A stretch of 64,000 bases of DNA from Promicromonospora iranensis (GTDB lineage: Bacteria > Actinomycetota > Actinomycetes > Actinomycetales > Cellulomonadaceae): the NCBI RefSeq assembly GCF_028994805.1, contig NZ_JAJQQP010000016.1:62001-126000 (forward strand). Direction: 5' to 3'. The notes under the pieces are model-generated. The model was not told the origin of the DNA, ran no database searches, and saw nothing but the letters and a program-made list of their open reading frames with translations. Shown one piece after another: positions 6,202 through 26,743 of the stretch. Position 1 is the stretch's first letter; the number at the start of each line of letters is the position of its first letter. The position numbers and the translations under genes are program-made.

Positions 6202-6204
6202 GGC

Positions 6205-8114: not shown

Positions 8115-8423
8115 CTAGAGGGTGTTGCCGAGGTCGATGAGCCAGTTCGTCCAGGCCAAGGCCCCACCGATGATCACCGCGCCAGCGACGCAGATGAGGA
8201 CACCCGCCCTGGCCTTGCTCGTGATCTGCCAGTTCCCGGAGGCTGACGCGATGCCCCAGGTGAACGCGCAGACGGCGAGCATCGCCACCGCGATCACCAG
8301 GGCGATGGTCAGCAGCGCGCCGATGATCGGGAACAGGCGGCTGCCGGTCACCGCACCGAAGTCCGGGCCGACCCCTGCGATCAGGCTGGCGGCTACTACC
8401 AGCGAAACTGGTGAGGTCGTCAT
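8115..8423 (-). CDS. VirB2/TrbC-like small membrane protein (second subunit)
   Basis: A 102-residue protein with three hydrophobic stretches (about residues 5-20, 32-55 and 72-92). The ATG at 8423 overlaps the stop of the M23 peptidase gene (ATGA), and GGAGG lies about 7 nt upstream. Like its neighbour at 7626-8003 it has a KAR/GK loop before the last helix (QITSKARAGVLICVAGA versus GRGKTGILVAAAAGV). Probably a pilin-like or pore subunit of the transfer channel. Confidence 0.65.
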   Translation of the reverse strand: MTTSPVSLVVAASLIAGVGPDFGAVTGSRLFPIIGALLTIALVIAVAMLAVCAFTWGIASASGNWQITSKARAGVLICVAGAVIIGGALAWTNWLIDLGNTL

Positions 8424-9610: not shown

Positions 9611-9619
9611 GGGTGTCCC

Positions 9620-10315: not shown

Positions 10316-10317
10316 GT

Positions 10318-12325: not shown

Positions 12326-12714
12326 CAGATACCCATCCCTTCGGTGCCTTGCTGCGGTTCGGTCCGTTCCTGTTGCCGGCCACCTGGCGTGAGCGCCCGC
12401 TTGGCGACCCCGGCGGCGTTCTTCGCCGCCGCGGTCGGTCGGCGCATTGCCCGGCGTACGAGCGCGGCGTGCAGGTCCACGCCACGCACCAGGACTCGCC
12501 TGGCGAACAGCGAGGGCAGGTCCCCGGCGCGGACCCAGGCGATCTCCCGATCCCTGGGCGAACGGGCCGGGGCCTTCGCCCGGGCGGTCTTGCGGCGGGC
12601 CTGGTCGTCGAACGCATGCGGATCGGTGCTCGACGACGGGGCCGGGGTCTTCGGCGGGGCCGGCTGGGCGCGCGGGCCTCGGCCGTGCTGTGAGTGCGGA
12701 GACTGAAGGTTCAC
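12325..12714 (-). CDS. Small basic, largely disordered protein
   Basis: A 129-residue Arg/Pro-rich protein whose GTG start at 12714 overlaps the stop of the prim-pol-like gene (GTGA). A central segment (IAWVRAGDLPSLFARRVLVRGVDLHAALVRR) is the only part likely to fold; both ends are low complexity and basic, which would suit nucleic-acid contact. Function unknown. Confidence 0.5.
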   Translation of the reverse strand: MNLQSPHSQHGRGPRAQPAPPKTPAPSSSTDPHAFDDQARRKTARAKAPARSPRDREIAWVRAGDLPSLFARRVLVRGVDLHAALVRRAMRRPTAAAKNAAGVAKRALTPGGRQQERTEPQQGTEGMGI

Positions 12715-13472
12715 AGGCTCACCACCTCCGGGGGTCGGTGGCTGGAGCCGTCGGGGTCGGGACGCGACATGGACCTCGCACCCGTCATGGGGCGCGGGTC
12801 AGCGGTGCGGCCCCAGCTGCGTCCCGCCCGCACCGCGGCGCTGGGTGACAGGGCCGGCCTCCCGCCTCTCGCGAGGGCGGGATCAACGAAGTGCCGCAGC
12901 GTGTCCGCATCGATCGGGCCCGTGCGGGTGCTGCCGGGACCGACCAGCTGGGCGCGCGCGACGACGCCGTCGGCGCGCAGAACCAGCGACGGCGGCAGCA
13001 GGACCTGACTGCCATCGCCGTGGAATAGGAGACCTGAGCGCGGCGCGTCCCAGGACTGCTGGGTGTCCTGCGGCGAGCGAGGGAAGATCAGGCTCAGCCC
13101 ACCGGTCGGTGTGCTGAGCACCAGCCCCGGCTGGGGCAGCAGCCCCGCGCGCATGGCGCGCCGGAGCGTGCTGATGCCCGACTTGGTGCGATCGGCGCGG
13201 ACCTCCAGGACGTCGAGCCGGGAGGCGGCTCCTGTCGGGACTGCGAGGTTGGTCGTCGGGTAACGCGACCACCACCACGCCACCCGATCCAGGTCCGTGG
13301 ACGCGCCCCGGGAACCTCGCACCGACAGGGGGCGGGCGCTGCCCTGGACGCAGGGGAAGACCGGCACACCCGCCGCAGCCAGCAGCCGGGCAGCCTCACC
13401 GGTGCTGCTGGTGTCGGCCGCGCGCCGGGCAGCCGTCAACGGCGCGGGGTCGAGCTCATGCGTGGTGTCCAT
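12711..13472 (-). CDS. Prim-pol-like protein that appears to have lost its catalytic residues
   Basis: A 253-residue protein with the outline of the bifunctional DNA primase/polymerase N-terminal domain: LLAAAGVPVFPCVQGSARPL, then a W/R segment (DLDRVAWWWSRYPTTNLAVPTG) and later FHGDGSQVLLPPS. In active members an acidic hhhDhD strand and an sGGxH motif form the active site. Here the corresponding strings read DVLEVRAD and PTGGLSLIF, so the second Asp and the His seem to be missing. It is the first gene of unit B, with its ATG at 13472 just 18 nt from the repeated 85-nt regulatory module. It may have become a DNA-binding or regulatory protein; this is inference. Confidence 0.65.
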   Translation of the reverse strand: MDTTHELDPAPLTAARRAADTSSTGEAARLLAAAGVPVFPCVQGSARPLSVRGSRGASTDLDRVAWWWSRYPTTNLAVPTGAASRLDVLEVRADRTKSGISTLRRAMRAGLLPQPGLVLSTPTGGLSLIFPRSPQDTQQSWDAPRSGLLFHGDGSQVLLPPSLVLRADGVVARAQLVGPGSTRTGPIDADTLRHFVDPALARGGRPALSPSAAVRAGRSWGRTADPRPMTGARSMSRPDPDGSSHRPPEVVSL

Positions 13473-13490
13473 GGCTCGACCTTGACGATC

Positions 13491-13575
13491 CAGCGCACGC
13501 TTTCCGCACACCTAACACCGCGCACGCCAGGGGTGTGCGCAGTGTTCCCGCTGGTCAGCCGCGCACACCAGTTCG
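13491..13575. promoter_or_regulatory. 85-nt three-box operator-like module before unit B
   Basis: The module contains CGCACACC (box 1, 13505-13512), the near-palindrome CGCACGCCAGGGGTGTGCG (box 2, 13521-13539), GGTCAG (13553-13558) and GCGCACACCA (box 3, 13561-13570). The same elements occur in the same order and with the same total length at 25813-25897; about 63 of 85 positions agree by hand alignment, with one compensating 1-nt indel. It lies directly upstream of the prim-pol-like gene and so at the head of unit B. Probable binding site of a regulator shared with unit A. No confident sigma-type promoter hexamers are visible. Confidence 0.6.
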
Positions 13576-13902
13576 TTTCTCACAGGATTGGCGGGGCCAG
13601 CTGGACACCCGAAGGCCCGTCCAGATCAGGCATCGCGACCCGGTGTGCAGCAGGTGCGCGCCCAGTCCGCGGCAGGTGTGCGGCGGGCCCGCCGCCTCAT
13701 CTCTTCGGACCTACCTCGAGCCCCTGGCCTGCCTCTCGTCACCGCTGTCGGGCGCTTCACCGCATGGGTCGCCAGCCCGACACCCCCCGCCCCTCAGCCT
13801 TGACGGCGGCGCGAAGTGACAAGGTCCTGACGCCTCGCTCGTACGTGAGCGCCCCTGGGTACGAACAGTTGATCTCGGCCGTTCTCGGGCCGGTTCGGCG
13901 TC
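13576..13902. other. Gene-free spacer between transfer units A and B
   Basis: No convincing gene in this spacer. It holds one further GGTGTGCG half-site (13675-13682) and a loose CGTAC/GTACG inverted pair near 13831-13854. The spacer separates the end of the LysM gene from the regulatory module of unit B. Confidence 0.4.
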
Positions 13903-13919
13903 GAGCAGATCGTCTGCTC
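13903..13919 (-). terminator. Weak hairpin at the end of unit A
   Basis: GAGCAGA, loop TCG, TCTGCTC: a perfect 7-bp stem overlapping the stop codon of the LysM/BTAD gene. There is no T-tract, so termination activity is uncertain. Confidence 0.3.
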
Positions 13920-16900
13920 AGGCTCCCCGGTGCTTCTTCCCGGACGGTCCTGGTGTCATGCCGCGCCGGGCCGTGATTTCGCGGGTGCGTTCCGGCGGGT
14001 CGGGCGGTGGCCACTCGTCATCGGTGCGGTCGTAGATCTCCTCGGCCAGTCGCTTGCGGGCCAGCTCGGCGTGACCGGTGACGTACTGGATGGTGATGTC
14101 GTCCAGCCGTGCGGTCTCGTCGTCGGGGTTGGCCTGCTTGCCGACCTGCGCCGCCCACCGGGCCAGCTCGATATCGTCCTCGGCCATCGCACGTGTATAG
14201 ACCAGGTGGGCGACGTCACCGATCGCTGCGGTCATGGTGTGGTCGATCCGGTCGCCCTCGAACAGCCAGGTCCACCCCTTGGTGCGGGTCTTGTCGAACG
14301 GGCGGCCGCGCACGATCTTCAGCGCGGTGACCAGATCGTCGATCCCGTCCGCGCCCCGGGCTCGCGCCCGGGCCTGCAGGCGCTGGAACAGGTCGATGTC
14401 GACCAAGAGGCCCTCGACCTGGTAGGCGGGCGTACCCGAGGTGGCGAACGCCGCCGTCTTGTTCGCACCCGGCACGTAGGGCCGACCAGTGGCGGGGTCG
14501 GTGCCGAGCCAGGCCCGTACCCCGGTGACCAGCGAGCGGCCACGGCCTTCCGCGATCGCGAAGTCCTCGGCCAGCTCGGCGGGAGTTGCGCCACGAGGAT
14601 GAAGAGCGAGGTAGGCCAGGGTCTCCACATGCAGCGCCTTGAGTCGTGCTGTGTGCTCGGTGATCCGTCCGTACGCGGTCGCGGTCACCGGGCCGAGCAG
14701 CATCAGCCGGGGGCGGCGGTATCGGTCGGGATCGAACCATGCGGCCACGTCCTGGCCGAGGGTGGGGTCGGCGTCGAGCGCCTTCTCGCTCGTCGTGGAC
14801 TGGGACATGACCGGCGCCAGGACCTCGACGTCCTGCGCCGTCGTTGCGGCAGCCTCCACGTAGTGGGCGGTCGGCGCGGGGAGGAGCGACCAGGGCCCGG
14901 CCGGTGCCTGAGGGTCGACGGGACGCTGCTGCGCCACCGGTGGCTCCGCGCCCATTTCGGCGGGGACATGCCCTGCGTGGACGGGCTCGACCGGTGCGGG
15001 CTGGGCCGTTGCGACATCGACGGCGTCCTGGGTCGTGGATTCGTCGGGTGGTGGTTTCTCTGCGGTACGGGTGACCTCGACGATCGCGACCGACGCGGCC
15101 AGTTCGTGCTCGGCCAGCCCGACTGCCGTCAGATCCCACCCCAGGTAGGGCACACGCAGCCTGCCCTCCCGCACGTCGAGGACGAGCCCCTGTGCCGCAT
15201 CCCCAGTGAGCGCGGGTGATGGTCCGGTAGCTGCGCCGAGCAGGACGACCGCCGCGCCGGGCCGGCCGCCCGCCCGGTCCTGGTTCGCGTGCAGGTTCGC
15301 GGTCAGGGTGTGCAGTGCGTAGCGTGTGGTCGTCCCGATGCGCGGCGCGGCGATGAGGGCGTGGGACTCGTCCCGCTCGCGCTCAGCGGTTCGTCGCGTG
15401 GCGTTGACGGCTTGGTCGACCTCGTTGACGCAGGCGAGGGTGTCGTGGTCGTCGGTGTGGTCGTGGTGGTGGCGGAAGTCGGACAGGCCCGTCACGTCCC
15501 AGCCAGTGGCCAGCGTGTGCAGGGTGGTGTTCTCCGCCCAGGGATGCAGGAGCAGCTCGGCCGTGACGTAACGCCCGAAGGCTTCGACCGATTCGCTGTC
15601 ACCGGTGACGGTCACGGTGCCGGCCTGTTCGAGGTCCAGCAACCACACGTGACCGGCGTCGTCCATGCCGACGGTCACCAGCAGCCGGTACGGCGCCAGC
15701 AGATCGTTCGTCTGCGCCTCAGGCGGTGCCTCCGTCAAGGCAGCGGTCCACCGCGTGCCGGACCCGACCCACGGCAGCGGCAGGTCCGCCGGCTCGGCCA
15801 GATGGACGACGGCCTCGGACCCGGTGAGCTCAACAGCGACCAGGGCGGGCACGTCACCGGTCGAGCCATCGCGCAGCGGTTCGGCCAGGCCACGCAGGAG
15901 GCGGTCCAGGGCGTCGATGTCCCCGACCCAGGCCTGCCCGGTCGTCGCGATGGTGCGCTCGACCGGCACTGTCGTGCTGGGCGCGGGGGTGATGCGGTGG
16001 CCGGGATACCGGTAGCGCCACTGGGTCGCGCGGCGGCGGCGCAGCGCGACCAGCAGCCCGGCCGCGAGCATCCCACCCGCACCAGCGAGTCCGGGCAGAA
16101 GCCACCCCGGACCCACGATCTCGCTCTGGTCCTCCTCTGTCCTGTCCTCCGGAGCTGACTGGGCCCCGGTCCTCTGCTGCTCCTCGCTGCCCGCTGGGGC
16201 GGGAGCGGACTGGGACCGAGGTGGGTCGGTCGGCCCTGCCCAGGGGTTGGTGTGCGGGGCCGGTGCGGTAGCGTCCGGGGATCTGGTGTTGTCGCGCACA
16301 CCGTCGTGTGCGGCGGACCCGTCCGGAGACGAGGTGGTGGATCCCGGAAGGCTCCCAGGGTGAACGGGAGAAGCGGGCGTTGGGGTCGTGACGTCGGGCC
16401 CGGTGGCGGTGTCCACGCCCGTCTTGTCTCCGGACACGGCGGGCTCCTGTACACGGTCCTGCTCGCGCGTGTCGGGCACGCTGCGCGGGTCCTTGGCCGC
16501 TGTCTCCGTCTCGGCAGACCGTCCTTGTGTGGTGTCGCGCGCGGAGGTGGAGGTTGAAGGCGATGCCGGAGTGGGTGTGATGGCGGGGATGGTCAACCGC
16601 CAGCCGGGCTTGATGCGGTCGGGGTCGGTCAGCTGGTCCCCGTCGGGCTGCACGGTCTGCCGAGAGGCGCGTGCGATGTCGGGGTACCGGTCGGCGTCAC
16701 CGAGCTTGTCCAGCGCGATCTGCGTCAACGTGTCCCCGCCCCGCACGACGTAGGTCGCGTCGCGCGGGGCCTCGTTGTTCGCCGTCGTCTCGGCCGCAGC
16801 CATGTCCGGTCTAGTGCTGTCCTCTGTGTCGTTGGACGGCGAGGCGGGCAGGCGCAGAACGGTGCCGGGGACGAGGAAGTCCGGCCGGTCGGCCAGTGCC

Positions 16901-17580
16901 GCCTGGTTGAGGTCCTTGAGCTCGGTGAACCGCATCGGGTCGCCGAGCTGGTCGCGGGCGATGCTCCACAGGCTGTCGTCCTCGACCACCGTGTACGGCA
17001 CGGTCCGCGGCCGTACCGGGCCCGACCCCGAGCTGTGTCCGCGCCCGTCGGACGTGGTGTGCGCGGTGGTGTGCGCAGGTGTGCGCGGTCCACCAGGGCT
17101 CGCCGAAGTGGTGTGCGCAGCCGCGCTCTCGGTGTGCGACGTGGCTGCATCGGCAGGCACGTCCGCCAGCGCAGGCGGGACGGAGACCACGAACAGCAGT
17201 GACGCGGTGCTCAGCAGGCGGCGGGCCAGGCCGCGCGGAAACCCGAGAGGGCCCGGCAGCGCGATCCGGCCGCTGAGCGCGACGAGCTCGAGGCCGATCG
17301 TGAGGGTCAGGTAGGCCCAAGCGGCCCAGGTCACGCATCCCAGGACGATGACGACCAGGGTGGTGCTGCCGGCACTGGTCAGGACCAGCCCGAGGTCGTC
17401 CCACCCGAACCCGGCGGGCAGGAGGCGGTGGCGCGCCAGCTCCAGCACCACCGGGACACCGACCACGAGCAGCAGCAGCCCGATCGTCGCGGCGAGGCCG
17501 CGCAGCCGGTCGCCGGTCGTGGGACGCACACCAGGGCGTGCGCGCTGGAGTGCGCGCTTCGCGGTGGGTGGGGTCCTCAT
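13918..17580 (-). CDS. Large membrane protein: LysM repeats outside, BTAD-type regulator region inside
   Basis: A 1220-residue protein from ATG 17580, overlapping the TadG-like stop (ATGA). Order of parts: three membrane segments (about 28-47, 65-95, 118-138), a Thr/His-rich stretch, LysM 1 (about 190-245, YTVVEDDSLWSIARDQLGD), LysM 2 (about 275-331, YVVRGGDTLTQIALDKLGD), a long Pro/Ser/Thr linker, a fourth membrane segment (about 490-510) followed by RRRRATQW, and a 700-residue cytoplasmic part. The last 250 residues contain a winged-helix-like block (LKALHVETLAYLALHPRGAT) and a helical repeat region of the bacterial transcriptional activator (BTAD/AfsR) type. LysM binds peptidoglycan, so the protein may couple wall contact to regulation. 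It is the last gene of the Tad unit. Confidence 0.75.
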   Translation of the reverse strand: MRTPPTAKRALQRARPGVRPTTGDRLRGLAATIGLLLLVVGVPVVLELARHRLLPAGFGWDDLGLVLTSAGSTTLVVIVLGCVTWAAWAYLTLTIGLELVALSGRIALPGPLGFPRGLARRLLSTASLLFVVSVPPALADVPADAATSHTESAAAHTTSASPGGPRTPAHTTAHTTSDGRGHSSGSGPVRPRTVPYTVVEDDSLWSIARDQLGDPMRFTELKDLNQAALADRPDFLVPGTVLRLPASPSNDTEDSTRPDMAAAETTANNEAPRDATYVVRGGDTLTQIALDKLGDADRYPDIARASRQTVQPDGDQLTDPDRIKPGWRLTIPAITPTPASPSTSTSARDTTQGRSAETETAAKDPRSVPDTREQDRVQEPAVSGDKTGVDTATGPDVTTPTPASPVHPGSLPGSTTSSPDGSAAHDGVRDNTRSPDATAPAPHTNPWAGPTDPPRSQSAPAPAGSEEQQRTGAQSAPEDRTEEDQSEIVGPGWLLPGLAGAGGMLAAGLLVALRRRRATQWRYRYPGHRITPAPSTTVPVERTIATTGQAWVGDIDALDRLLRGLAEPLRDGSTGDVPALVAVELTGSEAVVHLAEPADLPLPWVGSGTRWTAALTEAPPEAQTNDLLAPYRLLVTVGMDDAGHVWLLDLEQAGTVTVTGDSESVEAFGRYVTAELLLHPWAENTTLHTLATGWDVTGLSDFRHHHDHTDDHDTLACVNEVDQAVNATRRTAERERDESHALIAAPRIGTTTRYALHTLTANLHANQDRAGGRPGAAVVLLGAATGPSPALTGDAAQGLVLDVREGRLRVPYLGWDLTAVGLAEHELAASVAIVEVTRTAEKPPPDESTTQDAVDVATAQPAPVEPVHAGHVPAEMGAEPPVAQQRPVDPQAPAGPWSLLPAPTAHYVEAAATTAQDVEVLAPVMSQSTTSEKALDADPTLGQDVAAWFDPDRYRRPRLMLLGPVTATAYGRITEHTARLKALHVETLAYLALHPRGATPAELAEDFAIAEGRGRSLVTGVRAWLGTDPATGRPYVPGANKTAAFATSGTPAYQVEGLLVDIDLFQRLQARARARGADGIDDLVTALKIVRGRPFDKTRTKGWTWLFEGDRIDHTMTAAIGDVAHLVYTRAMAEDDIELARWAAQVGKQANPDDETARLDDITIQYVTGHAELARKRLAEEIYDRTDDEWPPPDPPERTREITARRGMTPGPSGKKHRGA
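16295..16312. promoter_or_regulatory. Operator-like palindrome inside the LysM gene
   Basis: CGCACACCGTCGTGTGCG, related to the box 2 palindrome of the two regulatory modules but lying deep inside coding sequence. May be a binding site or only a consequence of the local composition. Confidence 0.25.
17525..17542. promoter_or_regulatory. Operator-like palindrome near the start of the LysM gene
   Basis: CGCACACCAGGGCGTGCG, one base from a perfect palindrome with an AG centre, 38-55 nt downstream of the LysM gene ATG. Same family as the box 2 palindromes at 13521 and 25843. Confidence 0.35.
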
Positions 17581-18044
17581 GAGCGTCCTCCCTGCTCTGT
17601 GCCGGCAAGCGTGCGCGCCAGGCGTGCGGTGGCCGAGCCGGAGACCTCCCGGGGCCCGGCGATCGAACCGATGATCGGTGACCGGTAGGTGTCCGAGACG
17701 GTCACGGTGAGCGTGGCGTCGGCTACCGTGACGGCCCCGGTGACCCCGGCCGCGGACAGGTAGGCCTGCGCGGCCGTGCGCGCGGCATAGGGGTCGACGG
17801 TCAGGGTTTGAGTCCCCGAGGTCGTCCCTGAGGCGAGGGAGATCTGCTGTCCGCCGGTGCGTGCCGCCTGAGCAGCCAGGTCGTTGACGCGCTGTTGCGC
17901 CTGCAGGGTCCCGCCGAGCTCGACGACGAACGCCGCGCACAGCAATAGCGTTGCCATGCAGACGACCAGGAAGGGCAGCACCGAACCCGCCTCACGGTCC
18001 GCCCCGCAGGACGGTGGACCGGGGGTGGGGGGTTGCTGGGTCAC
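17577..18044 (-). CDS. TadG/TadE-like minor pseudopilin
   Basis: A 155-residue protein with the TadE/G N-terminal signature: a polar leader ending in DREAGS, then a single hydrophobic helix (VLPFLVVCMATLLLCAAFVVELG, about residues 20-42) and a soluble tail. Its GTG start at 18044 overlaps the stop of the upstream gene (GTGA). Much shorter than full TadG proteins (about 400-500 residues), so it corresponds only to the N-terminal part. Probably a minor subunit of the Tad-type pilus or fibre. Confidence 0.7.
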   Translation of the reverse strand: MTQQPPTPGPPSCGADREAGSVLPFLVVCMATLLLCAAFVVELGGTLQAQQRVNDLAAQAARTGGQQISLASGTTSGTQTLTVDPYAARTAAQAYLSAAGVTGAVTVADATLTVTVSDTYRSPIIGSIAGPREVSGSATARLARTLAGTEQGGRS

Positions 18045-18490
18045 TGGGACCTCCAGGTGTCGACGGGCGACGACATCGTCGCCGAGATGGTCACCGGGCG
18101 TCCGATGGGTAGGCCGAGCCGGATCGGATCGAGGTGGCACGTGACCGTGGCGGACACGGTCGAGGGCTGCCCCGCAGGGGCGAGCAGACCGCTGGTATCC
18201 GCGGCGACGTCGGTGGTCGCGCAGCGCAAGTCCTGGTTGGCCAGGGTCATCGTCGCCGCGGTGTGCGCGCCGGCCTGCGCGGCGGGCACGGTGCGTGCCA
18301 AGGAGGCGGACCGGGCAGCGTCGGCCGCAGCGGCTTGCACGGACTGGTGGGCCAGCGCATACAGCGCGCCGAACATGATCGCCCAGCACACGACCAGGAC
18401 GGGCAGGGCCATGACGACCACCTCGATCGCTGCCACCCCTGCCTCGGACTGGCCGGGCGGGTCCGAGCGTGCCTTGCGTCGGCGGGTCAT
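18041..18490 (-). CDS. TadE/TadF-like minor pseudopilin
   Basis: A 149-residue protein from ATG 18490, overlapping the upstream stop (ATGA). After a basic leader it carries SEAGVAAIEVVVMALPVLVV, the prepilin-like Glu-containing hydrophobic helix typical of TadE/TadF, and then AAAADAARSASLAR. Two Cys in the outer part (LRCATT and TCHLD) may pair. It is the middle member of three consecutive TadE/F/G-like genes. Confidence 0.75.
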   Translation of the reverse strand: MTRRRKARSDPPGQSEAGVAAIEVVVMALPVLVVCWAIMFGALYALAHQSVQAAAADAARSASLARTVPAAQAGAHTAATMTLANQDLRCATTDVAADTSGLLAPAGQPSTVSATVTCHLDPIRLGLPIGRPVTISATMSSPVDTWRSQ

Positions 18491-18990
18491 GGCATCCCCG
18501 GAGCTGTGAGGCGTTCGACGGGCATCGACGCGGACTGGGTGATGGTCAGGTCCCAGCCCGCCACCAGGGACTGGGTGCTGCCGGTCAGGGTGACGGTCGC
18601 AGTGGTGGCGGTGCGGGTGACCGTGGCTCGGGGTGCCAGGAGGAAACCGCGTCCGGTGGTGCTGGCGAACTGGACGGCGGCAGTCTGTCCGCTGCCGGCC
18701 GTGCCGGACTCGGCGGCGGCCACGCGGGCTCCTTCGCTGGCTGCGGCGATCGCGACCTGGCGTCCGGCGAACCACAACGTCGCCTGGACCGCGGCGATGA
18801 TCAGCAAGATCACCAGTGGTAGCAGGATCGCCGTCTGGATCGCTGCCTGCCCGGCCTCCTCCCGTCCACGGCCCGCACACCAGGGTGTGCGCGCCTCAGC
18901 CGCAGTCAGGACCCGCACCGGCGCGAGGGTGTGCGCACGCCGTACCGGCGTGCGGGGCTGGTCCGGGATGCGCACGGCGCTGGTCGTCAC
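18487..18990 (-). CDS. TadE-like minor pseudopilin
   Basis: A 167-residue protein with GREEAGQAAIQTAILLPLVI as the leader plus hydrophobic helix (about residues 45-70) and a polar outer domain. The N-terminal 44 residues before the helix are unusually long for TadE. The DNA encoding them contains an operator-like palindrome (18874-18891), and no start codon in this frame lies between the palindrome and the helix, so the palindrome is coding. ATG 18990 is the longest start; GTG 18915 (VRVLTAAEA) is possible. The next stop-start overlap (ATGA) ties it to the downstream gene. Confidence 0.7.
   Translation of the reverse strand: MTTSAVRIPDQPRTPVRRAHTLAPVRVLTAAEARTPWCAGRGREEAGQAAIQTAILLPLVILLIIAAVQATLWFAGRQVAIAAASEGARVAAAESGTAGSGQTAAVQFASTTGRGFLLAPRATVTRTATTATVTLTGSTQSLVAGWDLTITQSASMPVERLTAPGMP
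18874..18925. promoter_or_regulatory. Partial copy of the regulatory module inside the TadE gene
   Basis: Perfect-arm palindrome CGCACACCAGGGTGTGCG (18874-18891), followed by GTCAGG and CGCACC at spacings close to those of boxes 2 and 3 of the 85-nt module. Box 1 is absent. It lies within the 5' part of the TadE-like coding sequence. Confidence 0.35.
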
Positions 18991-19023
18991 GGTCGTCCCT
19001 TCGGAGATGGGAGTGGGTAGGTG

Positions 19024-19929
19024 TCACACAGGCGTCAGCAGGCGCATGACTGACGGCGCCAAGAGCAGGGCGATGAAGGTCAGGGCCATGACCGCGCCTG
19101 ACGCGCTCATGCGGACGGCGATCGCGTTGGCCGCGGCGAGGTCTTCGTTGCGTAGGGCGTTGCGTTGCGCCTTGGCGCTCTTGCGGAGGTTGTCGTAGAT
19201 CGCGGTGTTCTCGGTCGCGGACTGCTCGAGGGTCTCGGCCAGGTCGCGCAGCTCGCCGACGCCGACCTGGTCGGCCAGGTCTTTCAGCGCGTCCCAGGGC
19301 CGCACCCCGGACATCTGGGCTTGGGCCAGGGTGACCGCGATGCGGTTCAGGACCCAGGAGCCGGTGCCCTGGGCGGCGTGCTCCATCGCCTGGGGAACAC
19401 CGGACCCGCTGATGCGCCGCAGCGCGAGCAGGCTGGTGTAGAGGGACAGAGCGCGACGGAACTCGGTGCGGGCCTTGGTCGCCTTGTCCGCCACCGTGTA
19501 GTGCGGAATGTGGAACAGCGCCGCGGCCAGCAGCGCGGCACCGAGGGCAGGGACGGTGAACGGCACCTGGATGCCGAGCACCCCAAGGCCCAGGGACAGC
19601 AGGGGAGCAGCGACCACGCCCATGACGGCGCACACCAGCTGTTCACCGTAGAACCGTGCGGGCAAGATACCGAGCAGTGCCAGGTCGCGGTGTGGTGTGC
19701 GCAACCAGAGCCCGGCCGGGAGGTGGTCGCGACCCCACCGGCCCAGCCGTTCGGTGCCGCCCGGCACGGACTGCTCCCGTGGCCGCGAGCGGGACGGATG
19801 GGCTGCCGGGGCCAGACGGGTCAGGCCGTCGGCGAGGTCGACGTGCGCGGGCAGGAGCTGGATCACCAGGAGCGCGAGCGCGAGCGCGAGAGATCCGCCG
19901 GTCAGGCCGGCCCAGAAGAGCCCGGTCAT
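19024..19929 (-). CDS. tadC: TadC-like membrane protein of the Tad secretion system
   Basis: A 301-residue protein with membrane segments near residues 3-25, 98-140 and 278-295 around a cytoplasmic T2SF-type domain (FRRALSLYTSLLALRRISGSGVPQAMEHAA). Its ATG at 19929 overlaps the TadB stop (ATGA). TadB and TadC normally form the inner-membrane platform that TadA drives, and all three are adjacent here. Confidence 0.85.
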   Translation of the reverse strand: MTGLFWAGLTGGSLALALALLVIQLLPAHVDLADGLTRLAPAAHPSRSRPREQSVPGGTERLGRWGRDHLPAGLWLRTPHRDLALLGILPARFYGEQLVCAVMGVVAAPLLSLGLGVLGIQVPFTVPALGAALLAAALFHIPHYTVADKATKARTEFRRALSLYTSLLALRRISGSGVPQAMEHAAQGTGSWVLNRIAVTLAQAQMSGVRPWDALKDLADQVGVGELRDLAETLEQSATENTAIYDNLRKSAKAQRNALRNEDLAAANAIAVRMSASGAVMALTFIALLLAPSVMRLLTPV

Positions 19930-20792
19930 GAACGGCCTCCGGCGGTGAAGAGGCGGGTGGGTCCTGTGCCGTTGGACATCCGGTTGAACCAGAACAGGGT
20001 CAGGGCGAAGAAGCTGGCCAGGACGAGGAAGACGAGCTGGCCCAGTGGGGTGCGGTACGGCTCGATGTAGGTGCCGTTGAGCAGCATCGCGGCGATGGTG
20101 CCGACGGTGATGACGGTCAGCCAGGTCGCGGTGGCGCGGTAGGTGGCGCGGCTGGCCTCGACCTCACGGCGGGCGCGGACCTGGTCGGCGACGTCGTCGG
20201 CGAGATCGTCCAGCACCGTCGCGACCGGGCCGCGCAGCTCGATGGCCGTGGCCAGGGACTGGGCGACCATGTCCGCGGTCGGGTCGGCCAGGTCGTCCGC
20301 GAACGCGAACAGCGCAGCCCGGGGGTCCCATCGTGACTCCAGCCGTGCCGCCAGAGCCTGGACCTGCGGTGCGATCGGGGCCGGCGCGGTCCAGGCCGTG
20401 GACCGCAGGGCGCTCTCCAGGCCCTTGCCGCCGGACAGCGACCCGGCCAGGGACCGGGTCCAGTCCTGGATCGCTTCCAGGCGCTCGATCCGTTCGCCCT
20501 GGGCCCGGTTGGACAGCATCGACGGGACCCCGACCGAGACCACCGGTCCGACCAGGAGCAGCAGCGGCCAGCCGGTGATCAACCACGCGACCAGGCCGGC
20601 GGCGAGCCCGACCCCGATCAGGATCCGGGTCCGCCGCGGCATCCGGCGAAGCCCCGCCCGAGCCCGAACAAGGAGGCTGGTCCGGGGTGGACGTGTGGTC
20701 TGCGGCAGGACCTGACGTGCGGGGCGCAGTGCGTAGACGAGGCCGACCAGGCCGCCGCAGATCAGGGCACCGCACAGGGCCGCGATGATCAT
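19926..20792 (-). CDS. tadB: TadB-like membrane protein of the Tad secretion system
   Basis: A 288-residue protein from ATG 20792, overlapping the TadA stop (ATGA). Hydrophobic segments at about residues 1-20 and 55-80, a T2SF-type domain (DWTRSLAGSLSGGKGLESALR), then two segments at the C-terminus (about 212-260). Typical TadB length and layout. Partner of TadC. Confidence 0.85.
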   Translation of the reverse strand: MIIAALCGALICGGLVGLVYALRPARQVLPQTTRPPRTSLLVRARAGLRRMPRRTRILIGVGLAAGLVAWLITGWPLLLLVGPVVSVGVPSMLSNRAQGERIERLEAIQDWTRSLAGSLSGGKGLESALRSTAWTAPAPIAPQVQALAARLESRWDPRAALFAFADDLADPTADMVAQSLATAIELRGPVATVLDDLADDVADQVRARREVEASRATYRATATWLTVITVGTIAAMLLNGTYIEPYRTPLGQLVFLVLASFFALTLFWFNRMSNGTGPTRLFTAGGRS

Positions 20793-22375
20793 GAGCGGAC
20801 CGCCGTCGTGGTCCGGCCCGCCGGGCCCGCCTGGTGCAGGGCTTCGGTGAAGCAGTGCAGGTCGAACCCGTAGGCCTCCAGGCCTTGGTGGTCCAGGTCC
20901 GGCATGGTGCTGGGCACTGCGGCGCCGTCCGGCCCGGGTGCGAAGATCCGGGTGGTGGCGTACCCGGTCTCCCGCTCGCCGGGGGCCACGGAGATGATCT
21001 CGGCGACCTGGCGTCGTGGTGCCTGGCTGGTGGGGTCGTAGGACAGGTCGACGTGCACGATCAGGTCGATTGCGTGCGCCAGCTTGGAGGTCGCCAGGTC
21101 GTGGGTGACCTGTTCCTCGCCCTCCATCGCGCAGGTGACCAGTTTCCGGATGGCGGCGACCGCGCTGGTGGCGTGCGTGGTGGACAGGGATCCGGTGCCG
21201 GACTCCATCGCCTTGATCATGGGCCAGACCTCCGCGCCGCGGACCTCGCCGACGATCAGGCGGGACCGGTTGTACCGGAAGGACCGCCACAGGGCCTCGG
21301 CGATGGTGGACTCCCCGGCCTGCCGCCCGTCCAGGCCGACCTCACCGGATCCAGGGCGGGCCTCCCACGCGATCACGTTCGGGCGCAGGTCCTGCAGCCC
21401 GAGCTCGTACTCCGTCTCGAACGTCGCGATCCGTTCCCCGGCCGGGATCTGATCGCACAACGCGCGGGTCAGGGTGGTCTTGCCGGCGCTGGCTGCGCCG
21501 GAGACCACGATCGACTTACGTGCCCGGACCGCCGCGGCCAGGAACGACGCCGCCACGGGCGAGAGCATGCCCAGCTCGACGAGGTCGTCGAGGGTGACCT
21601 GGACCAGGCGGTGACGCCGGATCACCACGACCGGCCGGTCGGTCACCCACGCCGAAGCGGCCAGGCGGGCACCGCTACCGGGCAGGCGCATGTCCACGTA
21701 CGGGTTCCGCTCCGAGAACGGCCGGGCGCCCGAGCCGGTCCTCGAGGCGATGTCCTGGACCAGGCCGATCAGCTCGTCGTCGGAGTCCGCGACCGGTTGG
21801 CCGGCTACCCACGTGCCGTCGGCGTACTGGAGCTGGACGTTGCGGTGGCCGTAGATCTCGATGTTCTCGACGTCGTCGTTGTCCAGTAGCGGCTGGAGCC
21901 GGCCCATGCGGAACAGGCTGTTGAACACCGCGTCACGCAGCGCTTCACGCTGCGCGAGCGTGAACTCCGTCTTCCCGTCGTTGCGGCGGTCGGTGGAGGC
22001 CTGCTTCACCAGCCGGTTGATGGCCTCCTTGCCGGCTTCCTCCCGGACCAGGGCGTCGGTGCCTGGCTCGAACCGCTCGGCCTGCTCGGTGGAGACCTGG
22101 TCGCGCAACGCGGCGACCAGGGCCCAGTCCACCGGCACCGACCGCGACATCGTGACAGCGGAGCGGTCACCGGGTCGCCCGTCGCGCCTTGGGGCTGAAC
22201 CTGTGGGGGATGGCCCGTCGACCGGGTCTGTGGGCTCCGGCTGCCCGGAGCCGACCCAGGGGTTGGCCTTGCGGCGCAGGTTCGGCGGTAGCTCGTGCGG
22301 CACGGGGCGCGTGAAGTAGGGAACGTCCGCCGGGTCGGTTCCCTCGGGCGTCTCGGTGCGGGGCTCGGCCGTCAT
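20789..22375 (-). CDS. tadA: TadA/CpaF-type secretion ATPase
   Basis: A 528-residue ATPase of the type II/IV secretion superfamily (relatives: TadA, CpaF, VirB11). Walker A VSGAASAGKTTLTRAL (about 290-305), Walker B RLIVGEVRGAEVW (about 370-382), and a downstream STTHATSA segment (His box). Residues 1-75 are a Pro-rich, poorly conserved extension; an internal GTG near residue 72 could also serve as start. It should power assembly of the Tad-type fibre, and in this context could also take the VirB11 role in conjugation, since no other VirB11-like gene is present. Confidence 0.9.
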   Translation of the reverse strand: MTAEPRTETPEGTDPADVPYFTRPVPHELPPNLRRKANPWVGSGQPEPTDPVDGPSPTGSAPRRDGRPGDRSAVTMSRSVPVDWALVAALRDQVSTEQAERFEPGTDALVREEAGKEAINRLVKQASTDRRNDGKTEFTLAQREALRDAVFNSLFRMGRLQPLLDNDDVENIEIYGHRNVQLQYADGTWVAGQPVADSDDELIGLVQDIASRTGSGARPFSERNPYVDMRLPGSGARLAASAWVTDRPVVVIRRHRLVQVTLDDLVELGMLSPVAASFLAAAVRARKSIVVSGAASAGKTTLTRALCDQIPAGERIATFETEYELGLQDLRPNVIAWEARPGSGEVGLDGRQAGESTIAEALWRSFRYNRSRLIVGEVRGAEVWPMIKAMESGTGSLSTTHATSAVAAIRKLVTCAMEGEEQVTHDLATSKLAHAIDLIVHVDLSYDPTSQAPRRQVAEIISVAPGERETGYATTRIFAPGPDGAAVPSTMPDLDHQGLEAYGFDLHCFTEALHQAGPAGRTTTAVRS

Positions 22376-23223
22376 GCCTGCTCCTGTCGCCGATCAGCAG
22401 CGGTGGCCCATATCGCTCCTGGACCCGGTACCCGCCCCTGGGCCACGTCCGTTGCGCCGTCTGGTTCGGCGGAGAGCGCGGTAGTCGAGGGTGTGCCGAG
22501 GGAGGTCCGCTGGTGCAGGGCGCCCGCGGTCGCGTGAAGGGATCGGGCGAAGGCTCCCTTGGGGAACCGAGCCCGTGGTCTCACACCCTGGTGGTAGGTC
22601 TCGGCGTCCTTGGCGGAGTGGGCGATCTTCCCGACCAGCGGCAGCCCGAGAAGCTTGGCCGCACCCCGCCCGGAGTAGGGGCGGCCTGGACCGATCACCA
22701 GGAGCCCGGCCTGCTTCCACGCTCTGGTCCGCACGACGAGGTCGGCGTACGACCGGACCGCCGCGAGGGCGGGCAGATCGGTCCGGGTCACCAGCAGTGT
22801 CAGGTCGGCGCGCTCCAGCAGCAGTCGTGGGGAGTCGGCCATGCCGAGACGCCCGGCGTCGACGATCACGTCCTGCCCGGCCGCGTCCAGTCCGGCCAGC
22901 ACATCGGCCAGCGGCCCCCACAGGCCGCCTAGTTCTCGTGCTTCTAGATGCGACCGCACACCTGGCACGAACCGCACCCCGTCACGCAGCGGGATCGCCA
23001 CCCGGTCCAGAGCGGCGGCAACCGGCTCGGCAGCGAACGCGACGTCCAGCAGACCCGCGTCGTGGTCCCGGGCACCTTGGAACCACCCGGCCAGGATCGC
23101 CGACCCGCCCACCGGGTCGGCCTCGATCAGCAGGACCGGGCGCGGCCACGCGATGGCCAGACCGACCGCAGTCGTGGTGACTCCCGGCGAACCAGACGCG
23201 GAGCAGAGCGCAATGACAGCCAT
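22372..23223 (-). CDS. TadZ/CpaE-like MinD-family ATPase
   Basis: A 283-residue P-loop protein of the ParA/MinD type with a deviant Walker A (SASGSPGVTTTAVGLA, residues 8-23), in which the signature Lys of KGGxGKT-type loops is replaced. A DxD-like ADPVGGSA segment and VIVDAGRLGM (Walker B-like) follow. TadZ/CpaE proteins place the Tad apparatus in the cell. It overlaps TadA at its end and touches the CpaB-like gene at its start. Confidence 0.75.
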   Translation of the reverse strand: MAVIALCSASGSPGVTTTAVGLAIAWPRPVLLIEADPVGGSAILAGWFQGARDHDAGLLDVAFAAEPVAAALDRVAIPLRDGVRFVPGVRSHLEARELGGLWGPLADVLAGLDAAGQDVIVDAGRLGMADSPRLLLERADLTLLVTRTDLPALAAVRSYADLVVRTRAWKQAGLLVIGPGRPYSGRGAAKLLGLPLVGKIAHSAKDAETYHQGVRPRARFPKGAFARSLHATAGALHQRTSLGTPSTTALSAEPDGATDVAQGRVPGPGAIWATAADRRQEQA

Positions 23224-23963
23224 CAGCCCTCCCCGGTCGTGGGCGAGCCGCTGGGTAAGGGGGAAGGTTCGGTCCCGTCGTCGGGTGGTGTGGTGTTCTG
23301 CTCGTCGAGCTCGCGGGAGTCCAGGACGAGCGTCACCTTCCCGGCGGCGGCCTCGGCAGCAAGCGTGATGGCCTCTTCGTGGGAGATCAGCACGTCGATG
23401 ACGGTCTGCCCGTCCGGAGCGGGCGGGTTGACCGCGACCACCTCGGCTTCATGGAACGTCGGAGTCTGCTCGCTTCCACCATCGGGCGCCGTGACCACCG
23501 CCCGCACCCGGTCGCCGGGGAGCAGGGCCAGGCCAGGGGAGGCCGGCGGCGGCAGCACGATGCCGAGCACCGACATGCCCGCCGGCGGCACGAGTTCCTC
23601 GGTCACTACACCTGTCGTCAGCGGGGCACCGGCAGCGACGTCCCACGCTGCCCGCTGCCCGACGACGTCGGCTCGCGCCCCGGCGCCGATCAGGTTCAGA
23701 GCAACGTCTGCTCCGACCTGGGTCTCGGTCAGGTCCTCGGCGGTGATGACCGAGCCGCGCACGATCGTGTCCCTGGCTACGAGCACCGTGCGGGTGTCGG
23801 TCAGCGTCGCCCACAGCAGCACGGCACCCAGCGCGCCGACGCCGATCGCCGCGATCATCACGATCGCCAGGATGGGACGGCGCTTCAGCTTCGGTGGTGC
23901 CAGCCTTGCTCCTGCCGGTGGCACCCCTGGCGCCGATGGTCCTCGCGTGGTCGTGGTCGTCAT
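23223..23963 (-). CDS. CpaB/RcpC-like SAF-domain protein
   Basis: A 246-residue protein with a cytoplasmic Pro-rich leader, one membrane segment (about residues 29-50) and a SAF domain (VLVARDTIVRGSVITAEDLTE) followed by a beta-rich region. CpaB/RcpC proteins belong to Tad pilus loci, where they act outside the inner membrane. In a Gram-positive cell there is no outer-membrane secretin, so this may help the fibre cross the wall (inference). The C-terminus is acidic and Pro/Ser-rich. Confidence 0.75.
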   Translation of the reverse strand: MTTTTTRGPSAPGVPPAGARLAPPKLKRRPILAIVMIAAIGVGALGAVLLWATLTDTRTVLVARDTIVRGSVITAEDLTETQVGADVALNLIGAGARADVVGQRAAWDVAAGAPLTTGVVTEELVPPAGMSVLGIVLPPPASPGLALLPGDRVRAVVTAPDGGSEQTPTFHEAEVVAVNPPAPDGQTVIDVLISHEEAITLAAEAAAGKVTLVLDSRELDEQNTTPPDDGTEPSPLPSGSPTTGEG

Positions 23964-24000
23964 CTTCGCTACTCCCTTGGCCGCCCTGCCTGGCAGCCCG

Positions 24001-24987
24001 TCAGTTCACCAGTACCTGCGCCTCGCCGACCGCGACCTGCACGCTGCGCGACAGGTTGTCCACGTCCAAAGACCCGGACTGTCCGGCGCCTTCCCAGTCC
24101 ACGACCCATTCGCTGGTGGCCGTGACCGTGTATTTCTGCCCGGGCTCGTGTCCGGACTCGCGTGTGTAGGTGTGCCCGCAGTCCGGCGATTCCGACCGAC
24201 CGAACCGGGGCTCGTACGGCGTGCCCGGGCCGGTGCACACCACCTGGGTGCCGTCGCCCATGTCCCACACGATCCGCTCCACCCGGGCCGTCGCGGTCAC
24301 TGTCACCGAACCCGCCGACGCCGTGCGGGTGATCGGACCGAACGTCTGCTCGCCCGGGTTCTGCACCCACAGCCACGTCGGCAACGCCACAATCCCGGGA
24401 CCATCAGGTTCTGGGGAGATCCCGATCTCGATCGCGCGCAGGTTCATTCGCTCCACCGCTACCTGCGCCACCTCACCGGGTGAAGGGCCGGCGTCTGCTG
24501 CGTCAGGTGGCGCAGCCAACCAGATCCCGCCCAGGAGCCCGCCGCTGGGGAGGCGGCACTCGTAGATCGCTCCGTCGCCCGGCTCGTGGCCCTCCCACTC
24601 AGGCGAAGTGGCGGGCGGCTGCGGCATGGCCACGCTTAGGTAACAGTTCCACCGCTCGCTCCACACCCCGTGCTCGGACGTGCACGGCACGGGCCCACGC
24701 GCTGCCTCGAGATGGATCGTGATGCTGCCCTGCGGCTCCCACGTGCAAGCCGATCCCGTGCTCGACTGGCGCGCCGGCTTGGTCACTGCTTCGGAGCGCG
24801 ACTCTGTTCCGGAAGACGGTTGGCTGGTGCCTGGACCGCTGGATACACCAGGGTCCTGTGCCTTGATGACACAGACGCCGGCATCACGATCGAATGTCCT
24901 GCAGTGAGGGTCTGCAGAGGCCGGCATCGCTGCCCAGCTGAGTGCAAGTACCGCCGCAGCAGTAGCGGCTGCCGTCAGCCCGCGCAC
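24001..24987 (-). CDS. Secreted protein with PKD-like region
   Basis: A 328-residue exported protein; GTG 24987 is chosen because GGAGAAGG lies 5 nt upstream, overlapping the end of the lipoprotein gene. Signal peptide residues 1-25 (ATAAAVLALSWAAMPASA). Several Cys are spread through the mature chain. The C-terminal third (VERIVWDMGDGTQVVC, then CGHTYTRES) has the WDxGDGT and HTY strings of PKD-type beta-sandwich domains. Related secreted proteins sit next to Tad/T4SS genes in actinobacteria, to my memory, but the function is unknown. Confidence 0.65.
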   Translation of the reverse strand: MRGLTAAATAAAVLALSWAAMPASADPHCRTFDRDAGVCVIKAQDPGVSSGPGTSQPSSGTESRSEAVTKPARQSSTGSACTWEPQGSITIHLEAARGPVPCTSEHGVWSERWNCYLSVAMPQPPATSPEWEGHEPGDGAIYECRLPSGGLLGGIWLAAPPDAADAGPSPGEVAQVAVERMNLRAIEIGISPEPDGPGIVALPTWLWVQNPGEQTFGPITRTASAGSVTVTATARVERIVWDMGDGTQVVCTGPGTPYEPRFGRSESPDCGHTYTRESGHEPGQKYTVTATSEWVVDWEGAGQSGSLDVDNLSRSVQVAVGEAQVLVN

Positions 24988-25592
24988 GGGGCCTTCTCCA
25001 GCGTTTCCAGTGACGCCACACGCCACCCATTGAAGGGGTCTGCTTCATAGTCATAGTTGGCGACCTGAAGGCGCTCCCACGCCCGGTCTGGCCGGTCCGG
25101 GCTCACCATGGAGGCTCCGGACCTGTCCACAAGGCCGACGTCACTGACGTCATAACAGACATCGACCTGGACGTTCGGAACACGCCCCGATTCAGGATCG
25201 GAGTTGTCCAAGCTCACCGACTGCACGATCAGGTCGGCGATCTGAGTCTGTCCTGTCTTGCGCCAGCCGTCGGCACGCCACTGCTCCAAGATCTGTTGTC
25301 GGGTGCTCAGTTCCAAGCTGGTCGCAACGCGCTTGAGCCGCGATATCGGAGCATCGGGGTTCGCGCCGACCTCGTCCGTGACCGCGTAGTACTCGCGGAC
25401 AAGATCCTCGGCGGATGCCCGAGCGAGGGCCTTCGGATCGGTCGGGCTCGGCGAGGGCACCGCAGAGACTGACGGAGTCGGTGCTGGTGGCGAATCAATC
25501 GGGGTGGGCGAGGCTGACCCGGCGCCGGTCGTGCACCCGGTGGCTAGCGCAAGCAGCAATGCTGCTGTGAGAACAGGTCGTGTGGTGCGCAT
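24975..25592 (-). CDS. Lipoprotein, first gene of the Tad unit
   Basis: A 205-residue lipoprotein from ATG 25592: MRTTRPVLTAALLLALATGC gives a signal peptide with an LATGC lipobox, then a Pro/Ser/Thr linker and a domain of about 140 residues (LVREYYAVTDEVGANPDAP and on) whose size and pattern suggest an NTF2-like fold. The frame is open 67 codons farther upstream (ATG 25793), but that would bury the signal peptide. The regulatory module at 25813-25897 is 221 nt upstream, so the transcript would have a leader of about 200 nt. Confidence 0.75.
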   Translation of the reverse strand: MRTTRPVLTAALLLALATGCTTGAGSASPTPIDSPPAPTPSVSAVPSPSPTDPKALARASAEDLVREYYAVTDEVGANPDAPISRLKRVATSLELSTRQQILEQWRADGWRKTGQTQIADLIVQSVSLDNSDPESGRVPNVQVDVCYDVSDVGLVDRSGASMVSPDRPDRAWERLQVANYDYEADPFNGWRVASLETLEKAPCAG

Positions 25593-25812
25593 GCTGGGGG
25601 GCCTGCCTCCCTCGGCGTGCCGCTGGGACGGCGCGCCGTGATCGCCGACGAGCTCAAGAATGTCGTGCGAGTGAAAACTGGGGGAGACCATTACCGCCGA
25701 TCCGGATCGTTGGTGCAAGGCAAATAGCCTTTCCGTTACGAGCGCAAAGCAGTGCGCGCCGAGCGCAGGCGTGGAATTGGTCGCGGGCGTCATGCGTGGA
25801 ACGGTGGCAGAT

Positions 25813-25897
25813 GAGCGCACGCTCTGCGCACACCATGTTGCGCGCACACCATGGTGTGCGCGAGCATCGGCGCAGGTCAGGGGCGCACACCAAGTCG
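25813..25897. promoter_or_regulatory. 85-nt three-box operator-like module before unit A
   Basis: CGCACACC (box 1, 25827-25834), the perfect palindrome CGCACACCATGGTGTGCG (box 2, 25843-25860), GGTCAG (25875-25880) and GCGCACACCA (box 3, 25883-25892). This matches the module at 13491-13575 in order, spacing and flanking GAGCGCACGCT. It lies between the leftward lipoprotein gene and the rightward HTH gene, so it could control both directions. Confidence 0.6.
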
Positions 25898-25940: not shown

Positions 25941-25990
25941 TTTTTGGACGAATGTCCAAAAAGCCCGCACGCCATAGGTGTGCGGGCTTT
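25941..25990. terminator. Double hairpin, probable terminator carrying an operator-like palindrome
   Basis: Two perfect stems in a row: TTTTTGGAC-GAAT-GTCCAAAAA (25941-25962) and AAAGCCCGCAC, 9-nt loop, GTGCGGGCTTT (25960-25990). Read leftward, the second stem is followed by TTTTTGG, as in an intrinsic terminator. The second hairpin contains CGCACGCCATAGGTGTGCG (25966-25984), two bases from the box 2 palindrome at 13521, so termination and regulator binding may overlap. It insulates the divergent intergenic region. Confidence 0.6.
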
Positions 25991-26199: not shown

Positions 26200-26220
26200 A
26201 TGACGTGTTGGAGCGAATGA
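26200..26220 (+). CDS. Six-codon leader ORF before the HTH regulator
   Basis: ATG at 26200 reads MTCWSE and stops with TGA at 26218-26220, overlapping the ATG of the regulator (ATGA). It arose from a direct repeat of TGGAGCGAATGACG (26192-26205 and 26209-26222), which copies both the ribosome binding site and the start codon. It may couple or dampen translation of the regulator. Expression is unproven. Confidence 0.3.
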   Translation: MTCWSE

Positions 26221-26609
26221 CGAGCGCCGAGCTCTTGTGTGCGAGGGAGGGGCTCGGGCTGACGCAGTCGGATCTGGCGCGACTGCTCGGGAACAACGCC
26301 GAGACGATCCGGGACTGGGAGCGCGGGAAGACCTTCACCCCGGTGCGACTCGCTGCCCAGCTCGCCGAGGTCGAGGCGCTCTTGGAGGAGGCGACCGAGC
26401 GGGCGGTCACGGACCTTGTCGCCGAACTGCGGGCGATGCCGCGACCGCGCGCAGTGGTGTACGGGGAAGGGGAGCGGCCCCAGCAGGGAGACGTGGCGCG
26501 GCTCGGGGTGCGTTGGTGGCGGGGCGTCGCGAGCAAGGCCAAGGCCCAGGTGCCCGGAGCCAGGATCGGCACGCAAGCGGATTTCGACGCCATCGACAGC
26601 GAACTATGA
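26217..26609 (+). CDS. Small XRE-type helix-turn-helix regulator
   Basis: A 130-residue protein with an N-terminal HTH (LCAREGLGLTQSDLARLLGN, then NAETIRDWERGKTFTPVRL), typical of the XRE/DUF1870 type. The C-terminal half is basic and unassigned. ATG 26217 has GGAG just upstream; GTG 26205 in the same frame is possible. It is divergent from the Tad unit across a region full of operator-like boxes, which makes it the best candidate to bind them (inference). Confidence 0.75.
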   Translation: MTSAELLCAREGLGLTQSDLARLLGNNAETIRDWERGKTFTPVRLAAQLAEVEALLEEATERAVTDLVAELRAMPRPRAVVYGEGERPQQGDVARLGVRWWRGVASKAKAQVPGARIGTQADFDAIDSEL

Positions 26610-26647: not shown

Positions 26648-26743
26648 AGCGGTTTCGAATCGCTGAGCGGCGCTTGGTGTCGTAGAATTGTGGTACAGGC
26701 CAAGGGGAGAAGCCCCGGGTCAGGACGGCACAAGGAGCCGAGC

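Follow-up and report, generated by a model that had tools for sequence, protein, structure and literature searches.

The window and its two module copies

The window, the whole 64,000-nt stretch of Promicromonospora iranensis DNA analysed here (contig NZ_JAJQQP010000016.1, positions 62,001 to 126,000), includes the genes of an integrative and conjugative element (ICE). Two units on its minus strand, one of Prim-Pol, ParB and type IV secretion system (T4SS) genes and one of Tad genes, are each headed by a copy of the same 85-nt module, and genes for a helix-turn-helix (HTH) protein (HTH134), a second ParB_N protein (ParB609) and a MobF relaxase lie on the plus strand (Table 1). As judged from its sequence, the module is probably a promoter-operator, and it recurs in ICEs of related genomes and in integrative elements in which no such T4SS was detected.

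A preliminary description of the window had reported the two copies as regulatory modules with the same boxes in the same order, one of them 18 nt from the first start codon of the T4SS unit and the other in the gap that separates the Tad unit from the divergent HTH gene. The positions of both copies, the 18-nt gap between box 1 of module P and that start codon (a minus-strand ATG) and the exactness of the 18-nt palindrome in module T, the better copy, were all confirmed. The hand count of about 63 identities in 85 positions was confirmed by global alignment (63 identities, score 36), with one compensating pair of single-base indels; as a control, 4,000 random 85-mers taken from the window away from both copies gave a mean score of -12.4 (standard deviation 4.7, maximum 11). 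With up to three mismatches, the palindrome of module T was found at 15 places in the 5.84-Mb genome, compared with five for the reversed control pattern. Places with no more than two mismatches number eight, each of them either in the window element or on contig 13, which harbours a second integrated element.

Table 1. Coordinates of features of the ICE in the window.
Feature	Position	Strand	Remarks
T4SS genes of the Prim-Pol/ParB/T4SS unit	562-10321	-	VirB4-like and TrbL-like (both below curated cut-offs), M23 peptidase, unnamed others
ParB355 (ParB_N protein, 355 aa)	10318-11385	-	Homologue behind a module at 9 of 13 loci
Second-kind palindrome CGGTGGTGGCAATTTGCCACCACCG	10867-10891		Perfect, 25 bp; in linker of the ParB355 gene
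315-aa protein	11378-12325	-	No Pfam match
Prim-Pol gene	12711-13472	-	First gene behind module P; start taken as ATG at 13472
CAAGGT, -10-like hexamer	13479-13484	-	19 nt past second half-site of module P; ATG 13470-13472 next
Module P	13491-13575	-	Head of Prim-Pol/ParB/T4SS unit; box 1, second half-site (13504-13512), palindrome (13521-13539, 1 mismatch), GGTCAG, last half-site
Tad unit	13918-25793	-	LysM protein, TadE-like, T2SSF proteins, T2SSE ATPase, SAF protein, others
Palindrome in LysM-gene coding DNA	16295-16312		Counterpart in 4 of 4 ICEs (author's sorting)
Palindrome near LysM gene 5' end	17525-17542		Counterpart in 4 of 4 ICEs (author's sorting)
Palindrome in 5' coding part of TadE-like gene	18874-18891		Present in 2 of 4 ICEs
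CACCGT, -10-like hexamer	25801-25806	-	19 nt past second half-site of module T; ATG 25791-25793 next
Module T	25813-25897	-	Head of Tad unit; box set as in module P
Palindrome of module T, CGCACACCATGGTGTGCG	25843-25860		Exact
Inverted repeat TTTGGACGAATGTCCAAA (TTTGGAC-N4-GTCCAAA)	25943-25960		In 3 of 4 ICEs the arms are exact; the remaining one has degenerate arms
Further palindrome CGCACGCCATAGGTGTGCG	25966-25984		Lies between module T and the HTH gene, with 1 mismatch; all four ICEs have a counterpart (0-2 mismatches)
HTH134 (HTH protein, 134 aa)	26205-26609	+	
ParB609 (second ParB_N protein, 609 aa)	26690-28519	+	Of 13 genomes, four have matches, namely those with the ICEs
MobF (TrwC) relaxase, 1786 aa	28890-34250	+	Helicase and DnaG-like primase/TOPRIM domains fused in one protein

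Distribution of the module

The sample comprised 13 Promicromonospora genomes and 187 others of the family, 200 in total. Copies of the module were detected by blastn in 11 of the 13 Promicromonospora genomes. A search for it in relatives, which had been proposed in the preliminary description and was made with a sequence-only model of 25 copies, recovered 31 copies with E < 1e-9 in 12 of the 13; 25 of these matches hold by construction, and the six outside the model are new. G005 is the sole genome of the genus without a copy at this threshold. The family-wide search, run over the 200 genomes with stricter filters and 20 candidates scored per genome, gave none at E < 1e-9 among the 187 genomes outside the genus. 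The best match there (G197, E 9.2e-7) was dropped, as its neighbour genes look flagellar by eye. Plasmid and phage collections contained no match to the better module copy.

Eight of the 31 strong copies are found in four ICEs, two in each, namely the ICE in the window and those on G009 contig 1, G006 contig 15 and G012 contig 4. Each of them has one module at the head of the Prim-Pol/ParB/T4SS unit and the other at the head of the Tad unit. This arrangement, together with a -10-like element at a fixed distance, supports the coordinated control of T4SS and Tad genes that had originally been proposed. The link to transfer units is not specific, however, since the remaining 23 strong copies lie elsewhere, mostly beside integrase genes, and a fifth T4SS locus (G012 contig 13) has no module match.

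No VirB4 match with E <= 1e-20 was found in seven of the 13 genomes (G001, G002, G003, G007, G008, G010 and G011), an absence that rests on one VirB4 query against the 13 genomes and on ICE proteins against the fetched stretches, with other T4SS types not searched. All seven carry at least one of the 31 module copies, the copy in G001 being the weakest. VirB4 fragments are present in G004, G005 and G012 contig 1. Transfer operons of the helper and integrative elements lacking this T4SS carry the same box, as is characteristic of a regulon of the AcaCD-SGI1 type.

Module architecture and the predicted promoter

The boxes of the module have one half-site in common, GCGCACACC or a near copy of it. 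A weak box 1 is followed by the second half-site, the palindrome, which consists of two half-sites facing each other, GGTCAG and the last half-site. Spacing, the -10-like element and folding were assessed in 29 copies, i.e. the 31 less a partial copy at a contig start in G004 and the weak copy in G001. Counted from the second half-site, GGTCAG or the closest variant of it (GGTCA, GGCCC and GTTCA were counted as variants) lies at +49 in 26 of these, and 25 have the last half-site at +57 or +58. The gap within the palindrome varies from 2 to 4 nt, despite the near-fixed register of the outer boxes.

A CANNNT hexamer lies exactly 19 nt past the second half-site, on the strand reading into the downstream gene, in 26 of the 29 copies; of the other three, one has TANNNT at that place, one is shifted by 1 base and one is without a clear match. 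In most copies the start codon follows 6-7 nt beyond CANNNT. This placement fits an actinobacterial -10 element, with no evident -35, from which a transcript with little or no leader would arise. A core promoter element at a fixed distance from the boxes is the arrangement of a promoter-operator, which the module probably is. Conservation is confined largely to the module, as the upstream flank is not conserved and the downstream flank is conserved only within classes of loci.

The palindrome hardly covaries (RNAalifold covariation term -0.04 for 25 sequences, with 1 of 15 pairs changed on both sides), which indicates that its sequence rather than a hairpin is kept, and this sequence is probably read by a protein. 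Folding of the module as DNA gave a mean z of about -2.1 on either strand. Some copies fold well, but the folds differ between copies and no covariation accompanies them, and a single-strand hairpin promoter was rejected. Comparison of 19 module loci with known RNA families returned a single match (E 0.03), below its gathering score.

Module copies outside the four ICEs

The author sorted the remaining 23 copies into three classes. Twelve are followed by palindromes of a second kind, five precede a homologue of ParB355 (with a homologue of the 315-aa protein in between in four of these), and six are partial, disrupted or next to cargo. In 11 of the 12 palindrome-followed loci, an integrase homologue is centred 1.0-2.0 kb behind the module, and a tRNA gene lies near the integrase in eight of the 12; at the twelfth (L049), the only integrase-like sequence is a short piece on the opposite side. 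The integrases were identified by Pfam for three proteins and by similarity to those for the rest.

The region behind the integrase-type modules is conserved at 11 loci (L036 8610-8895 and ten others, alignment A4). It contains the inverted repeat GTTGGGGGACATG/CATGTCCCCCA, then GGGGGAC and GTACCTCGACRGGTAC. A coding function for it was rejected by eye, as reading frames do not persist. An RNA structure received little support, 7 of 59 pairs being changed on both sides in 11 sequences (covariation 0.31).

The best-defined of these elements lies on contig 13 of the genome of the window (L007-L008, 1134-25328). It is bounded by 55-bp repeats of a tRNA-Gly end (54 of 55 identical) that lie 24 kb apart, and contains genes for a MobF-like relaxase, Xis and an integrase together with two modules, but no match to the T4SS proteins of the ICE. 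Between the two modules is a CutA1-domain gene, and a HAD-like gene (by eye) has relatives near many modules. The Xis-like protein (L008 3222-3707) has two HTH_17 domains, and the adjoining integrase (3704-5158) also matches the model of the Lsr2 DNA-binding domain. Among other tRNA-Gly elements in the fetched stretches, only one weak pair of end repeats was found (G008, 8 of 45 mismatched).

Outside the four ICEs, a relaxase homologue is located within 35 kb of a module on the same contig at nine loci (ten copies). Five or six of the nine are of the long kind (75-88% identity to the ICE relaxase) and the others are shorter (~40%). Relaxase and module were shown to lie within one element solely on contig 13.

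A second kind of palindrome

Behind the module at the twelve palindrome-followed loci, two to four palindromes of the form GGTNNNGSCAANTTGSCNNNACC occur in a fixed order. All four types are present within 4 mismatches at seven of the 12; types 1 to 3, when none is missing, are spaced by 97-108 bp, and type 4 follows after another 94-194 bp. Each of the four ICEs also has one such site, within the linker of its ParB355 gene, as does one G009 element, in which no T4SS gene was found. These five sites comprise one of type 1, three of type 2 and one of type 4, and a single mismatch is present in two of them. As the type differs between the five ParB355 orthologues, both arms must have changed together. 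With up to two mismatches, types 1 and 2 occur at 29 places in nine of the 13 genomes and their reversed control at none. Four of these places are in ParB355 genes, 23 in the twelve loci and two on G012 contig 40, where the pair adjoins an int/xis-like pair near the contig end and no module was seen.

Further sites and genes of the ICE

The word CGCACACC occurs 24 times in the 12.5-kb Tad segment, eight of these within module P, module T or the site next to the latter, and two to four times in each of five other segments (8.8-49 kb). In Tad coding DNA it was observed 15 times, compared with a mean of 3.2 and a maximum of 8 in 300 synonymous shuffles, in which one gene (25012-25590) was read in the wrong frame; that gene holds no box. 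The excess of palindromes with at most one mismatch is weaker, at three in Tad coding DNA versus a shuffle mean of 0.3 but a shuffle maximum of 3. An AHT-rich linker of the LysM protein explains part of the boxes in Tad coding DNA. The palindromes there lie in different reading frames and hence encode different residues.

Left of the window, a tyrosine integrase homologue beside suf-cluster-looking genes (L005 9357-10712; contig 8, 41357-42712) probably marks the left end of the ICE. No repeat was found between 41001-41450 and 96201-100500 of contig 8 that would define the outer ends. A fragment 77% identical to the relaxase C-terminus, outside the window at 132350-132598 of contig 8, may be a remnant or the far end of an element.

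Candidate regulators

The regulator of the module is most likely an ICE-encoded ParB-like protein, although certainty is low. The HTH protein, which the preliminary description had put forward for binding assays, is not directly supported in this role. Close homologues of HTH134 are confined to the four ICE genomes (on contig 13 of G012 there is also a distant one, 38%), and a different inverted repeat lies beside its gene. This repeat, TTTGGAC-N4-GTCCAAA, is a candidate operator of the HTH gene and would be a more natural target for HTH134 than the module.

Homologues of ParB355 were found at 13 loci, nine of which have a module upstream and four do not. Those with a module are at least 45% identical, except for a split copy in G007 (pieces 39 and 48%), and those without are 36-43% identical. 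This association is no proof of regulation, as a promoter is passed on together with its gene. At L107, one of the loci without a module, a TGCACACGCC/GTGGTGTGCC palindrome lies ahead of the homologue of the 315-aa protein. The N-terminal domain of ParB355 is of the ParB type, matching Noc, Spo0J and ParB chains (up to E 5.8e-8); PF02195 scores 25.0 bits in the ParB_N protein of the window against a cut-off of 26.3, and exceeds the cut-off in a homologue. The structure model of ParB355 was not usable (mean pLDDT 42).

The 315-aa protein is conserved alongside ParB355, and its model is helical (mean pLDDT 67). Foldseek returned 36 matches, all with E > 2 and none significant; about 15 of them are chains from RNA polymerase complexes, taken for sigma subunits, and a weak resemblance of the modelled protein to sigma factors is suggestive only.

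Interpretation

We consider it reasonably likely that the module is the promoter-operator of a family of conjugative and mobilizable elements, controlled by a protein that recognises GCGCACACC. The best reading is of an ICE regulatory box that mobilizable elements carry as well, with a logic like that of IncC and SGI1. Such a protein would bind the half-sites and control a promoter with the -10-like CANNNT and no evident -35, and transcription would begin at or near the start codon. With CANNNT at -12 to -7, the approximate positions would be -40 to -32 for the second half-site, -67 to -48 for the palindrome, -86 to -81 for GGTCAG and -97 to -89 for the last half-site. In the ICE of the window, the module would jointly control the Prim-Pol/ParB/T4SS operon and the Tad operon, with extra palindromes in the Tad unit and beside the HTH, ParB609 and relaxase genes. 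Given that the module also occurs in smaller elements without this T4SS, several of them near MobF relaxases, an ICE regulator could activate those as well, and the smaller elements may borrow an ICE transfer machine. The sequence of the module, its spacing, its distribution and its neighbours were observed directly; promoter function, the sign of control and helper dependence are predicted from them.

Several observations weigh against this interpretation. The fifth T4SS locus, which lacks a module match, is a near-full VirB4 locus (68% identity). At the integrase-type loci, the predicted transcript runs against xis and the integrase gene rather than driving them, so that the module promoter faces both genes, unlike the AcaCD box of SGI1, and no persistent reading frame was seen by eye in this transcript. 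The module copies are related by descent, and their agreement is thus not independent evidence. Several palindromes lie within coding DNA and would suit a partition site equally well, and one ParB355 locus without a module (L108, G012 contig 30) has an isolated palindrome 9 kb away. Finally, the module-bearing genomes G001, G004, G008 and G010 have no homologue of ParB355 (E <= 1e-6) or HTH134 (E <= 0.001), which implies that the regulator there comes from elsewhere or is another protein.

A bolder form of the promoter-operator interpretation can be offered only tentatively, and we doubt it more than we believe it. Promicromonospora elements without a T4SS of this kind would mimic two control systems of a helper ICE at the same time, the promoter module and a set of centromere-like palindromes. 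They have up to four of these palindromes, whereas a single one is present in the ICE, within the linker of its parB-like gene. Such elements would be silent until an ICE arrives, and would then be activated, held or segregated by ICE proteins, as a separately evolved actinobacterial MobF counterpart of IncC and SGI1.

It is unlikely that the module is merely each element's own promoter, under host or element-specific regulators and shared by descent or recombination without any interaction between elements. This would account for the persistence of copies in genomes without the ICE, and the relaxases of several elements lacking this T4SS are 75-88% identical to that of the ICE, so that ICE and smaller elements share ancestry. 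The module is conserved, however, where its upstream flank is not and its downstream flank is so only within classes, and besides integrase and xis no recurring DNA-binding gene was found at the integrase-type loci when called open reading frames within 9 kb were clustered and some of them scanned for domains.

Equally, we regard as improbable that the palindromes are parS-like centromere sites of a ParB/KorB-type protein, with the modules being those that overlap promoters and the main role being partition. The ICE does encode two ParB_N proteins, one with a Noc/Spo0J/ParB-like N-terminal domain, the second kind of palindrome is located in a parB-like gene, and palindromes are spread over promoters and coding DNA, which recalls the 14 parS sites of the IncC plasmid R55 described in passages of PMC10954446. 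Against this, the near-fixed spacing of the palindrome to GGTCAG, the outer half-sites and the -10-like element exceeds what a centromere would be expected to need, and the libraries used revealed no ParA next to the ParB genes, with only a below-cut-off BcsQ-like match (E 0.0027) elsewhere, in the Tad unit.

A transfer origin, an attachment site or an Frpo/ssi-like single-strand hairpin promoter with a role in transfer would be palindromic, prone to fold and present in conjugative and probably mobilizable elements, as the module is, yet each is highly improbable, as there are two modules per ICE and the same module lies near relaxases of ~40% and of 75-88% identity, the modules are internal in the only element with defined ends (contig 13, where tRNA-Gly repeats form the ends, a rejection that concerns this one element), and the palindrome hardly covaries.

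If the promoter-operator interpretation is true, it offers a sequence signature by which helper ICEs can be connected with the mobilizable elements exploiting them in Actinobacteria, for which passages of the review PMC5704250 name one such element. Two kinds of control sites would then be common to elements with different integrases, and which elements move together would become testable from sequence. No paper joining ICE, Tad pilus, Actinobacteria and type IV secretion was found, which is not proof that the matter is unpublished, and there was no mention of Promicromonospora among the matches listed for this genus and mobile elements.

Comparison with known systems

The multiple palindromes in promoters and elsewhere, the ParB_N proteins and a possible autoregulation resemble the KorB/ParB-type global regulators that exist on plasmids such as RK2. 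Extra half-sites and GGTCAG in a near-fixed register distinguish the module from these.

With an integrase, xis, a relaxase and no T4SS found, the smaller elements, most clearly that on contig 13, resemble canonical integrative and mobilizable elements (IMEs) that encode a relaxase. Passages of PMC5704250 name MobP, MobQ, MobV and MobC as the relaxases of such IMEs, and one actinobacterial IME (2017), whereas the relaxase here is MobF.

The elements also resemble IncC plasmids and SGI1. Helper regulators act on mobilizable islands in Gammaproteobacteria, according to passages of PMC5704250 and PMC11389934, and SGI1 carries two parS-like sites bound by the ParB of the IncC plasmid, according to passages of PMC10954446. 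As in the AcaCD regulon, the same box occurs in helper operons and in integrative elements without the helper T4SS, and the smaller elements carry palindromes related to that of the parB-like gene of the helper, here as judged by sequence alone. The system described here differs in being actinobacterial, in its MobF relaxase and in its box; several of the smaller elements seem to have a relaxase of their own, and the integrase-type module faces xis and integrase rather than driving them.

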